Notes under the pieces: generated by a model | What the model saw: the letters and a program-made list of their open reading frames with translations, nothing else | Databases searched by the model: none | Told to the model about the DNA's origin: nothing | DNA from: Anaeromyxobacter terrae | Lineage (GTDB): Bacteria > Myxococcota > Myxococcia > Myxococcales > Anaeromyxobacteraceae | DNA: 64,000 nt | Direction: 5' to 3' | NCBI RefSeq assembly: GCF_022690685.1 | Contig: NZ_JALCYY010000020.1 | Location: 1 to 64,000, forward strand | Program-made: the position numbers and the translations under genes | Shown: positions 404 through 4,136 of the stretch, one piece after another | Position numbering within the stretch: position 1 is the first letter of the stretch | How the letters are laid out: the number at the start of each line of letters is the position of its first letter

Positions 404-876
404 GGGCCGCCTCGCCGCGCGCGCGCGCTGCACCAGGGCCGCGCGCTCCCGTCGCCCGTCGACGTGACGGCATCGCGGGTGAGGACGCGCTCTGGCGACG
501 ACGTGAACATCGGTCCCTCGGGTCCGAGTCGAGCCGCGCCACCGGGCGACGGCCTGCGACAAGACGCCGCGATGTTAGGGAGCGCCGTTCGAGCGTGTCA
601 ATGCGACGATTCACTACCAGTTTACGTTCGATATCCCGTCGTCCCGCGGTCGCGCGACAGGCTGGAGCGCCACGCTCGCACCCACCCGCCGCAAGGTCGC
701 TGAATTCCACGAGGCGGGTAGGGCGCGCACCCACGACGCCTCACGTCCGCGGACACATCGATCCGTCGCGGCGCGACGGCGGAGGTGCGCGCGAGCTCGC
801 TCGGCATCGCCAAATTCCCTGCGACGAGCTGTCCGGTGATACTGGGCATCTCGCCGCAGCCCCGGAGGAACGCCAC
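404..876. other. Divergent intergenic region
   Basis: The 473 bp between two divergent genes contain no ORF with convincing codon bias. It holds a leftward promoter (572-601) and a Shine-Dalgarno GGAGGA (864-869) for the rightward gene. I looked for a GEMM-type riboswitch core, because such switches precede cytochromes in deltaproteobacteria, and did not see one. Confidence 0.5.
572..601 (-). promoter_or_regulatory. Sigma70-like promoter for the roadblock-like gene
   Basis: On the minus strand TTGACA (601-596), an 18-nt spacer and TAACAT (577-572). The -35 is a perfect consensus and the -10 matches 4 of 6. Transcription would start near 565. Confidence 0.5.
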
Positions 877-2256
877 GTGCTCCACCCCCATCGCGCCGGA
901 CTCATCCTCTTCGTCGCCCTCGCCGCCTGGGCGACCCCGGCGCGCGCGCACCAGGCCTATTACGGCGACTTCTGCGCCGGCTGCCATTCCTCGACCGTGC
1001 AGACGTGCAACGGGTGCCACTCGCACGGGACGCACTCGGGCGCGACGAAGAGCGACATCAACCTCGCCGTTGCGCTCGACAAGGGCACCTACGCGCCGGG
1101 CGCGACCGTGACGGTGACGATCACCGGCGGCTACCAGTCCGGCTGGTTCCGGGCCCTGCTCCTCGATGCGGGCATGAAGGAGCTCGCCCGCAGCAGCTGT
1201 CCGGGAAGCCAGGGCGGCTGCGCGACGACCGGCTACCCCGTGACGCTCACCGCGGCCGCGCCGACGTCGCCCGGCACGTACACGTGGGCGATCGCGTGGT
1301 ACGGCAACTACGCGCACGAGGGGACCGGGGCCTCGTTCGGCAGCGGCACGTCCTCCACGCTCCGGGCCGGCTACTTCACCGCCGATGCGAGCAACCCCGA
1401 CCACGGCTACCAGGTCGTGGCGCTGCCCGCCTTCACGGTGAGCGGCGCTGGAGCGCCGGCGATCGGCGTCGCGCCGACGTCGCTCGCGTTCGGCACGGTC
1501 AGCGTCGGCGCCTCCGCCACGAAGACCGTCACCCTCACGAGCACCGGGACCGGCACGCTCACCGGGGGCGTCGCCGTCGCGCAGGGGACGAGCTCCGAGT
1601 ACTCCGTCTCGCCCGCCACCTTCTCGCTCGCGCCGGGCGCGAGCCAGACCGTCACCGTGACGTACGCGCCGGCAGATACGACGAGCGACACCGGCTCGCT
1701 CGTGGTGACGAGCGACGACGCCGCGAGGCCGAGCGTCTCGGTCGCGCTGCAAGGGACGGGCACGGCCACGGCGCTGCCGACCGCCGCGCTGTCGCCGGCG
1801 TCGCTCGACTTCGGCTCCGTGACCGTCGGCGCGTCGGCGTCGCAGGCCGTTCAGCTCCAGAACACCGGCGTGGCGACACTGACGGTGACGTCCATCGCCC
1901 GATGCGGCAGCCCGGCGACGAGCACCGAGTTCGGCTGGACGGCGCTCCCGCAGCCGTTCACGATCGCCGCCGGCCAGAGCGTCACGCTCACCGCGACCTA
2001 CGCCCCGGCCGACGCCGGCGCGGACACGGGGTGCCTCGTCGTGACGAGCGACGACCTGCAGAACCCCACCCTCGCGCTGAGCGTCCGCGGGAGCGGTACC
2101 CAGCCGTCCGGCGGCGCCCCCTCGAGCGGAGGCTGCAGCTCCGGCGCGGGCGGGAGCGCGTCGACGCTGCTCGTCCTCCTCGCGGCGCTCGGGATGCGGG
2201 GCGTTGCGTGGCGGCGCCGCGCGAAGAGCTCGAGCACGTCCGCCGCTGGGCGGTGA
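877..2256 (+). CDS. Secreted di-CxxCH protein with choice-of-anchor D repeats and MYXO-CTERM-like tail
   Basis: 459 residues from GTG at 877, chosen because GGAGGA (864-869) sits 7 nt upstream and a signal peptide follows at once (hydrophobic core residues 7-20, cleavage after ARA at 24). Two CxxCH motifs at 33-37 and 44-48 could bind two c-type hemes. Residues about 60-180 form a beta-rich domain. Two immunoglobulin-like choice-of-anchor D repeats follow (about 190-300 and 305-410), each with an LDFGSV/LAFGTV strand and ending in a TYAPAD...TGSLVVTSDD pattern. The C-terminus is Gly/Ser-rich with GGCSS, a hydrophobic stretch and WRRR, the layout of a MYXO-CTERM sorting signal. I infer an exported, surface-sorted protein with a possible redox role. 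Neither heme binding nor sorting is shown. The frame is also open upstream of 877, but that part lacks coding character. Confidence 0.75.
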   Translation: MLHPHRAGLILFVALAAWATPARAHQAYYGDFCAGCHSSTVQTCNGCHSHGTHSGATKSDINLAVALDKGTYAPGATVTVTITGGYQSGWFRALLLDAGMKELARSSCPGSQGGCATTGYPVTLTAAAPTSPGTYTWAIAWYGNYAHEGTGASFGSGTSSTLRAGYFTADASNPDHGYQVVALPAFTVSGAGAPAIGVAPTSLAFGTVSVGASATKTVTLTSTGTGTLTGGVAVAQGTSSEYSVSPATFSLAPGASQTVTVTYAPADTTSDTGSLVVTSDDAARPSVSVALQGTGTATALPTAALSPASLDFGSVTVGASASQAVQLQNTGVATLTVTSIARCGSPATSTEFGWTALPQPFTIAAGQSVTLTATYAPADAGADTGCLVVTSDDLQNPTLALSVRGSGTQPSGGAPSSGGCSSGAGGSASTLLVLLAALGMRGVAWRRRAKSSSTSAAGR

Positions 2257-2347: not shown

Positions 2348-2517
2348 CCGCGCCGTTCAGGCGGCTTCTGCGCCGGGGAGGTGTCCCATGCCGATTCAGC
2401 TCGACGGTGTCCCGGGATGCTCCTCGGAGTGCGCGTAGCCGTTTCCCCGCTCGATCCTCACTGACGGGTCCCGGTGCGCGCGCTCCTCGGAGCGCTGCGT
2501 CCAGTGCACGTACACCC

Positions 2518-2539
2518 GCGCCCTCGCTGGCGAGGGCGC
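2518..2539 (+). promoter_or_regulatory. Perfect GC hairpin in the leader of the RbfA-like gene
   Basis: Ten-base arms GCGCCCTCGC (2518-2527) and GCGAGGGCGC (2530-2539) separated by TG. It ends 17 nt before the ATG at 2557, has no U-tract, and so lies across the ribosome loading zone rather than acting as an obvious terminator. Confidence 0.45.
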
Positions 2540-2556
2540 GGCAGGGAACCGTCTTC

Positions 2557-2991
2557 ATGTCCAAGAGAACGCACCGAGCCGGCGCGCGGCCGTCGCGCGC
2601 CCAGCAGGCCCCTCTCTACCCAGGAGATCCCGACGCCGATGCCACGGGGCATCGCCAGGAACGACTCGAACGCATCCTTCACGACGAGATTCAGACGCTC
2701 ATCCGCGACGAGGCCGCCGATCCCGCGCTCGAGGGCGTGAGGCTCGTCTCCGTCCACCTCTCGGTCGACGGCGGGCACGCCCGCATCGGCTACGTCGTCG
2801 AGGCGCCCCTCTCGGCCGAGCGCCAGGTCGAGACCGCTTCTCTCGCAGGGCTGGGGCGCGCCGCCGGCTTCCTCCGCGCTCGCCTCGCGTCACTGCTCGA
2901 TCTCAAACGACTCCCGAAGCTCTCCTTCACGTTCGTGGGCGTTCAGGACCCGGGCGCGAGCTCGTCCGGAGGTGCCCCATGGCACGAGTGA
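2557..2991 (+). CDS. RbfA-like protein (paralogue linked to rtcB)
   Basis: 144 residues from ATG 2557; an earlier in-frame ATG at 2407 would add an Arg/Ser-rich leader without codon bias and run through the hairpin, so it was rejected. Residues about 33-128 follow the ribosome-binding factor A pattern: RQERLERILHDEIQTLI helix, DEAADPALEGVRLVSVHLS strand, ARIGYVV strand, an A-rich helix ending GFLRARLASLLDLKRLP, then KLSFTFV. RbfA is a KH-type protein that binds immature 30S subunits near the 5' end of 16S rRNA. Bacterial rbfA normally sits with nusA-infB-truB; here it overlaps rtcB by 13 nt, so the two are surely co-transcribed and translationally coupled. The basic N-terminal tail of about 30 residues is extra to the family core. 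The role in RNA repair is inference from context. Confidence 0.7.
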   Translation: MSKRTHRAGARPSRAQQAPLYPGDPDADATGHRQERLERILHDEIQTLIRDEAADPALEGVRLVSVHLSVDGGHARIGYVVEAPLSAERQVETASLAGLGRAAGFLRARLASLLDLKRLPKLSFTFVGVQDPGASSSGGAPWHE

Positions 2992-4136
2992 TCCCGCCGC
3001 CTCCGGGACGCGGGGCCGTCCCGGTTCACGTCTGGAGCCGGGAGCCGCCACCCGCGGCCGTCGCGCAGCTCGAGCGCATTGCTGCGCAGCCGTACGTGGT
3101 CGGTCACGTCGCCGGCATGCCTGACCTGCACGTCGCGCACGGTGTGGCCGTCGGCACCGTGTTCGCGACCGAAGGCGTGGTGGTGCCATCCGCGCTGGGC
3201 GGCGACCTCGGGTGTGGCGTTGCGGCGGTGCAGCTCGACGTGTCCTCACAGGCACTCGGTCGCCAGGACCTGCAGCGGATCCTGGCGGGCTGGTCTGCTC
3301 GCATCCCGGTTGGCGACGCGGTGCACCGCGGGAAGGGAGTGTCCGCACCGCCCGACCTCCCGAACCAGCCGCTCTCGACGAGCTCCCTCGAGCACGCCCG
3401 GGAGCGGCTCATGCGCCGCCATCTCGGCACGCTCGGCGGAGGTAACCACTTCGTCGAGCTCGACCGCGACATGGAGGGTCGGATCTGGCTCCTCGTCCAC
3501 TCTGGCTCGCGTGGCCTCGGATCGGCCATCGGCGCCCACCACCTCAGGGCCGCCGAGGCGTCCGGCGTCGGCGACATCCCCGGCCTGTCGGTGGACTCCG
3601 ACGCGGGAGGAGCGTGCCTGGCCGACATGAGCTGGGCTCTCGCGTTCGCGTCGGCCAACCGGGAGGCGCTCCTCGCGTCGGCCGTACGGGTCGTCCACGA
3701 GGTCACTGGCGCTACACCTGACCCGTCCACCCGGATCGACTGCCATCACAACTTCGCGCGCGAGGAGCATCTCGGGCGCAAGTTGTGGGTCCACCGGAAG
3801 GGCGCGATCGCTGCTCCTGCCGGCGCGACGGTGCTCATACCAGGTTCCATGGGCACGGCCTCCTACATCGCCGTGGGACTCGGCGAGCCGACATCGTTCG
3901 GGTCGGCGTCGCACGGCGCTGGGAGGGTGATGACGCGGCGGGAGGCTCGCGAGCGTGTCAGTGTCGAACGGCTCGCGCGCTCGATGCGCCGGGTCATCCA
4001 TGATGAACGACGCGCGCACGGCCTTGTCGAGGAGGCGCCCGAAGCGTACCGGGACATCAAGGAGGTCCTGGAGGACGAGGCGGACCTCGTCCGCCCGGTC
4101 CGGCGGCTCGAGCCACGGGTTGTCCTCAAGGGCTAG
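2979..4136 (+). CDS. rtcB: RtcB-type RNA ligase
   Basis: 385 residues. RtcB joins RNA 2',3'-cyclic phosphate or 3'-phosphate ends to 5'-OH ends using GTP and Mn2+. Visible family motifs: GGDLGCGV with the metal Cys at 79, GTLGGGNHFVEL with the metal His at 157, VHSGSRGLG (173-181), HHNFAREE (256-263), HRKGAIAAPAG (272-282), GSMGTASY (289-296), and SHGAGR with the His that becomes guanylylated at 312. All active-site residues I can identify are present. It is somewhat shorter than E. coli RtcB (408 aa). ATG 2979 lies inside the end of the RbfA-like gene, so translation is probably coupled. No rtcA, prfH or archease gene is adjacent. A strong hairpin terminator follows at 4144-4177. Confidence 0.92.
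   Translation: MARVIPPPPGRGAVPVHVWSREPPPAAVAQLERIAAQPYVVGHVAGMPDLHVAHGVAVGTVFATEGVVVPSALGGDLGCGVAAVQLDVSSQALGRQDLQRILAGWSARIPVGDAVHRGKGVSAPPDLPNQPLSTSSLEHARERLMRRHLGTLGGGNHFVELDRDMEGRIWLLVHSGSRGLGSAIGAHHLRAAEASGVGDIPGLSVDSDAGGACLADMSWALAFASANREALLASAVRVVHEVTGATPDPSTRIDCHHNFAREEHLGRKLWVHRKGAIAAPAGATVLIPGSMGTASYIAVGLGEPTSFGSASHGAGRVMTRREARERVSVERLARSMRRVIHDERRAHGLVEEAPEAYRDIKEVLEDEADLVRPVRRLEPRVVLKG

Follow-up and report, generated by a model that had tools for sequence, protein, structure and literature searches.

In the myxobacterium Anaeromyxobacter terrae, a gene for a paralogue of the ribosome assembly factor RbfA (RbfA2) overlaps a gene for an RNA ligase of a separate RtcB subfamily (RtcB-R), and this pair is probably a dedicated rRNA-repair operon, in which RbfA2 would position a break in 16S rRNA for sealing by RtcB-R. 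The case is built on computed evidence: the identity of both genes, the intact active site of the ligase, the RbfA fold of its partner, their linkage in one clade across phyla, and an RNA-repair context.

Both genes lie on the forward strand of the window, that is, the whole stretch of 64,000 nucleotides that was analysed. The rbfA2 gene (2557–2991, +) encodes a protein of 144 aa and rtcB-R (2979–4136, +) a ligase of 385 aa, and the two frames, as read from the sequence, share 13 nt (2979–2991, +). A sequence-only reading of this DNA had described a 144-aa RbfA-type ORF overlapping rtcB by 13 nt; its coordinates are right, and the products match the Pfam families RBFA and RtcB. A GGAGG resembling a ribosome-binding site for rtcB-R is found inside rbfA2 (2968–2972, +), six bases from the ATG of rtcB-R, and GGAGG or GGAGGTG is similarly placed in many relatives. 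The overlap is also kept in relatives, the close relative Anaeromyxobacter oryzae having the same 13 nt. Just 5′ of the rbfA2 start there is an inverted repeat with perfect 12-bp arms around a 2-nt centre (CCGCGCCCTCGCTGGCGAGGGCGCGG; window 2516–2541), and the upstream ORF (window 595–2256) shows, by eye, haem-like CxxCH motifs as well as similar segments that recur. Inverted repeats of at least 9 bp were found upstream of the pair in 0 of 81 linked relatives. An RtcR-type sigma-54 promoter was found in 0 of 88 upstream regions, which counts against the rRNA-repair reading.

The canonical rbfA, which the same reading had expected elsewhere in the genome, is present on another contig of the source genome (G000, contig C85; 104 bits), with the end of infB and a 143-aa DUF503-like ORF on one side and truB and rpsO on the other. 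Two further RtcB genes are encoded on C13 and C55 of this genome. Several RtcB paralogues are likewise known in another myxobacterium, Myxococcus xanthus, as paralogues 1–3 (Maughan and Shuman, 2015, as cited in PMC9223846).

RtcB-R belongs to the RtcB ligase family (PF01139, 302.5 bits) and has the full catalytic set, D76, C79, N156, H157, H174, H257, N258, and H312. The D76..C79 metal-site motif (3204–3215, +) is conserved in 82 of the 83 linked RtcBs, and H312 of the SHGAGR motif (3912–3914, +), by homology the histidine expected to be guanylylated, in all 83; over the whole set, the catalytic residues are kept in 81–83 of 83. Judging from these residues, the active site is intact. RtcB-R is only about 35–43% identical to other RtcBs and scores under the cut-offs for RtcB2 (TIGR03073, 165.7 vs. 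271.8; PRK09588, 197.7 vs. 407). In a quick maximum-likelihood tree, the RbfA-linked RtcBs form one clade (SH-aLRT 92; one label change), which splits into two subclades, each supported at 100; the PrfH-linked RtcB2 are placed far away. The canonical rtcBA operon with RtcR likewise contains an RtcB ligase, whose catalytic residues are the same, but neither rtcA nor rtcR was read beside the window pair, and no third conserved gene adjoins the pair outside genus-level synteny.

The partner protein matches Pfam RBFA (PF02033) over residues 33–125 with 51.9 bits, above the gathering cut-off of 34.7, and this RbfA KH-like core (2653–2931, +) is modeled with pLDDT of about 90–97. It is below the NCBIfam rbfA equivalog TIGR00082 (41.8 vs. 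51.15). Some members of the RbfA2 subgroup called group B score under the Pfam gathering cut-off, and the single RbfA2 sequence of Alteromonadaceae bacterium M269 gives almost no Pfam signal (13.7 bits), a result that counts against the rRNA-repair reading. Profiles of both RbfA2 subgroups have RbfA as their leading PDB matches (E 1.8e-13 and 3.4e-8). Furthermore, the AlphaFold models of the window RbfA2 (pLDDT 83) and of the very divergent M269 RbfA2 (pLDDT 85) both have RbfA as the first Foldseek match, and the window model reaches VIA Z 13–15 for the best RbfA rows, with Z 15 against Thermus thermophilus RbfA. Profile and predicted structure thus bear out the earlier assignment to RbfA rather than to another KH family.

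RbfA2 and canonical RbfA, the 30S assembly factor, have in common the Pfam RBFA match and the KH type II fold. They differ in several respects besides the equivalog score. RbfA2 is extended at the N-terminus by a stretch of its own (about 30 aa for the window protein, residues 1–30; 2557–2646, +; pLDDT 50–60), which is absent from the canonical copies in the alignment; in group B, this extension carries a D-G-x-D/S-P-R/K type motif (L088, L091, L102, and L137). The segment after beta3, of the D-S-G-R-I-L-L type, is present in canonical myxobacterial copies and absent from the RbfA2 alignments; in Staphylococcus aureus, it is the helix that contacts S7 (PMC9917171). RbfA2 also lacks the Arg of the DPR motif that canonical RbfA has at alpha1/beta1, and because both this residue and the S7-contacting helix are missing, the 30S site of RbfA2 could differ from that of RbfA. 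Finally, the canonical gene is located beside infB and truB, the rbfA2 gene instead beside rtcB. A basic Lys-Arg pair in the alpha3/beta3 loop (residues 117–118; 2905–2910, +) is conserved in linked RbfA2s: among sequences with letters there, K or R is found at the first position in 86 of 86 and at the second in 84 of 86, while both positions are lost in three of four orphan RbfA2s, those without RtcB-R. In the RbfA tree, RbfA2 stands apart from canonical RbfA, with the exception of canonical rows that were badly cut and sit on long branches; monophyly of RbfA2 is therefore not firmly claimed.

The pairing is not local and is far above chance. By protein search, the RtcB-R subfamily is found in 72 of 195 Myxococcota genomes, including four divergent members confirmed by locus reading. 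At least two RbfA matches occur in all 72 of these genomes, compared with 11 of the 123 without RtcB-R (Fisher p 5e-42 over the 195 genomes, a value that ignores relatedness). RbfA2 is immediately upstream and on the same strand at every RtcB-R locus read. A 4-nt overlap (ATGA, GTGA, or TTGA) is possible in 55 of 74 linked loci and one of 8–17 nt in 11 more; as the start codon nearest to −4 was chosen, these counts are biased towards the 4-nt class. The linkage that the sequence-only reading would have sought in related genomes is therefore found in relatives and, as follows, across phyla.

An RtcB-R alignment was used to scan 84,980 genomes, and the best 80 loci among the matches listed were kept. 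Among these matches, the loci close to the query have RbfA2 directly upstream, in Planctomycetota, an Acidobacteriota MAG, and two Gammaproteobacteria, and more distant RtcBs, from Gilliamella, Bacteroidales, and Clostridia, have no adjoining RbfA2. In a phylum-wide sample of Planctomycetota, RtcBs at least 44% identical are linked in 14 of 14 cases and those at 43% or less in 0 of 16. The distribution is patchy: the pair is found in 72 of 195 Myxococcota, about 14 of 392 Planctomycetota, and 1 of 369 genomes of a gammaproteobacterial sample. Canonical rbfA was also found in nine of nine genomes of other pair-bearing lineages. Protein distances of RbfA2 and RtcB-R correlate with each other (r 0.90 overall, 0.71 within the mixed-phylum subclade), and the mixing of phyla in one linked subclade suggests that the pair moved between phyla as a unit. 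As for vehicles, tblastn gave no match of RbfA2 on plasmids or phages, and RtcB-R in viral contigs was rejected as a candidate, the best 80 RtcB matches there being 34–40% identical, below the linked subfamily when identity alone is compared.

There are exceptions. Of the 11 Myxococcota genomes with at least two RbfA matches and no RtcB-R, three Anaeromyxobacter genomes, G024, G152, G043, and G104 could be classified; the other four are G056, G062, G188, and G193. Orphan RbfA2s are encoded in three Anaeromyxobacter genomes (L041 6928–7404, L042 6607–7035, and L043 6218–6694), where they lie on a long branch of the tree and have lost the KR pair, and in G024 (L044 6552–6887). In G152, RbfA2 is present and no RtcB is found on the short remainder of the contig, and the second RbfA of G043 is a copy of the canonical type. 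That a few genomes retain RbfA2 with no RtcB-R beside it counts against the rRNA-repair reading. In G104 (L175 896–1818), only remnants are left: an N-terminal part of RbfA2 continues straight into the C-terminal half of RtcB-R, and frame breaks are present, which looks like joint decay of the two genes. An in-frame stop breaks RbfA2 in G110 (L047 2619–3062), where the adjoining RtcB-R is open; this stop may be an assembly error or mark a pseudogene.

Neighboring genes give the strongest functional hint in one genome, that of M269. There, RbfA2–RtcB-R is located within about 22 kb of other RNA-repair genes, in an island (L172 7331–14807; L173 7745–13502; same contig as L102) with RlaP, RtcB2, PrfH, an RNA ligase of family PF09414, and an HD-plus-P-loop kinase; beyond intervening genes, rtcA, rtcB, a band-7 protein, and RtcR follow at a distance of about 9 to 15 kb. 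M269 PrfH matches TIGR03072 with 262 bits, and its RtcB2 passes both TIGR03073 and PRK09588. The full island was found in this genome only and has other genes interspersed, which counts against the rRNA-repair reading. At 11 sampled loci of Myxococcus type, a tRNA-Gln (TTG) gene is found about 150–245 nt downstream of rtcB-R, for example in L052 (4186–4259), L055 (5988–6061), and L082 (4194–4267). A conserved tRNA neighbor was considered and rejected, since tRNA-Gln is absent from this position in other lineages.

The closest known system is RtcB2–PrfH of the Escherichia coli ATCC 25922 type. It is likewise an overlapping two-gene operon of an RtcB paralogue and a protein docking near the decoding center, as RbfA2 would do, and the two pairs share one island in M269. 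Unlike in that system, the partner here is an RbfA paralogue rather than a release factor, RtcB-R belongs to a separate clade below the TIGR03073 and PRK09588 cut-offs, and RbfA2 adjoins RtcB-R and not prfH. A search of the source genome with the PrfH model gave at best 114.4 bits, under the cut-off of 166.65, in a 453-aa frame, and a GGQ motif scan for PrfH near unlinked RtcBs returned only M269 and one unrelated ORF. The best reading is that RbfA2–RtcB-R may work like PrfH–RtcB2 without being a member of that system. Since just one among the 195 Myxococcota genomes has a PrfH above its cut-off, RbfA2–RtcB-R could fill that role in this phylum. A literature search for RtcB with RbfA returned unrelated papers only; the 2016 RNA-repair survey of Burroughs and Aravind was outside its scope, and an earlier mention is possible.

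Where on the ribosome such a pair would act is suggested by structures of canonical RbfA. The sequence-only reading had placed RbfA on the 5′ side of 16S rRNA, which needs correction: RbfA contacts the 16S 3′ end, the neck helix h28, and the h44–h45 linker, with the top of h44 shifted, and not simply the 5′ side (PMC9917171; PMC8201178). Colicin E3 cuts at A1493/G1494, and RtcB2–PrfH counters it, RtcB2 repairing the cut (PMC9223846), while MazF removes the last 43 nt of 16S rRNA and RtcB religates them (PMC12186496). Because these breaks lie where RbfA binds, RbfA2 is proposed to hold the 3′ fragment and expose the break. The idea of a repair operon had come from the earlier reading; its RNA-repair role is supported by the context in M269, in one genome, and for the guiding of the ligase to damaged 30S subunits we infer 30S binding, RbfA2/RtcB-R contact, substrate, break position, nuclease, and repair as follows. 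RbfA2, with its KH core kept, its own N-terminus, and no C-terminal helix, would bind the 30S subunit at its neck and at the 16S 3′ minor domain, hold the 16S 3′ fragment in place, and displace the top of h44. The break would thereby be exposed to RtcB-R, which would seal its 2′,3′-cyclic phosphate and 5′-OH ends. Candidate breaks are a colicin E3-type cut at A1493/G1494 or a MazF-type loss of the last 43 nt.

A narrower version of this repair-operon reading has the pair undo MazF-type trimming by the cell itself at the 16S 3′ end, as in stress ribosomes, rather than the action of foreign toxins. E. coli RtcB religates MazF-cut 16S rRNA (PMC12186496) and RbfA holds the 16S 3′ end (PMC9917171), but the lack of a third gene conserved beside the pair outside genus-level synteny speaks against it, and we regard this version as tentative and rather doubtful. 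Alternatively, RbfA2 could serve RtcB-R as a general RNA-binding cofactor, in a role like that of archease, with tRNAs or other RNAs and not the ribosome as substrates. RtcB cofactors such as archease do exist (PMC10630183), the active site of RtcB-R is complete, RbfA2 differs from RbfA at some residues that contact 16S rRNA, and in Myxococcus-type genomes the pair is closely followed by tRNA-Gln. However, this tRNA neighbor is missing in other lineages, RbfA2 keeps the RbfA fold and the basic alpha3/beta3 loop, and the small subunit is the established site of action of RbfAs with known function (PMC9917171; PMC8201178), which makes a general cofactor unlikely. It is quite improbable that the pair is a route of pre-16S maturation, cutting and religating precursor rRNA in normal assembly rather than responding to damage: RbfA does act in 30S assembly, and its deletion accumulates 17S precursor (PMC8201178), but the patchy distribution and the joint decay in G104 suit an accessory system, and canonical rbfA is kept in the genomes tested. 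That the adjacency is neutral or due to chance, with no joint function, is scarcely credible, as the survival of RbfA2 without adjacent RtcB-R in a few genomes is set against one-clade linkage across phyla with overlapping frames, the joint decay in G104, and the long branch and lost KR pair of the three Anaeromyxobacter orphans.

RNA ligases are able to seal many breaks. To our knowledge, PrfH, with RtcB2, is the only ribosome-directed partner of an RNA ligase. The chances are about even that RbfA2–RtcB-R represents a new class of ribosome repair in at least four phyla, in which a duplicated assembly factor serves as a damage-specific adaptor that grips the broken 3′ fragment of 16S rRNA for a ligase of its own. 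If so, a second, unrelated adaptor would have been drawn from the ribosome assembly pathway, and rRNA repair would have arisen more than once. The 16S 3′ minor domain would then be a concrete substrate, and the extra RbfA and one of the several RtcBs in many myxobacteria would have a role.
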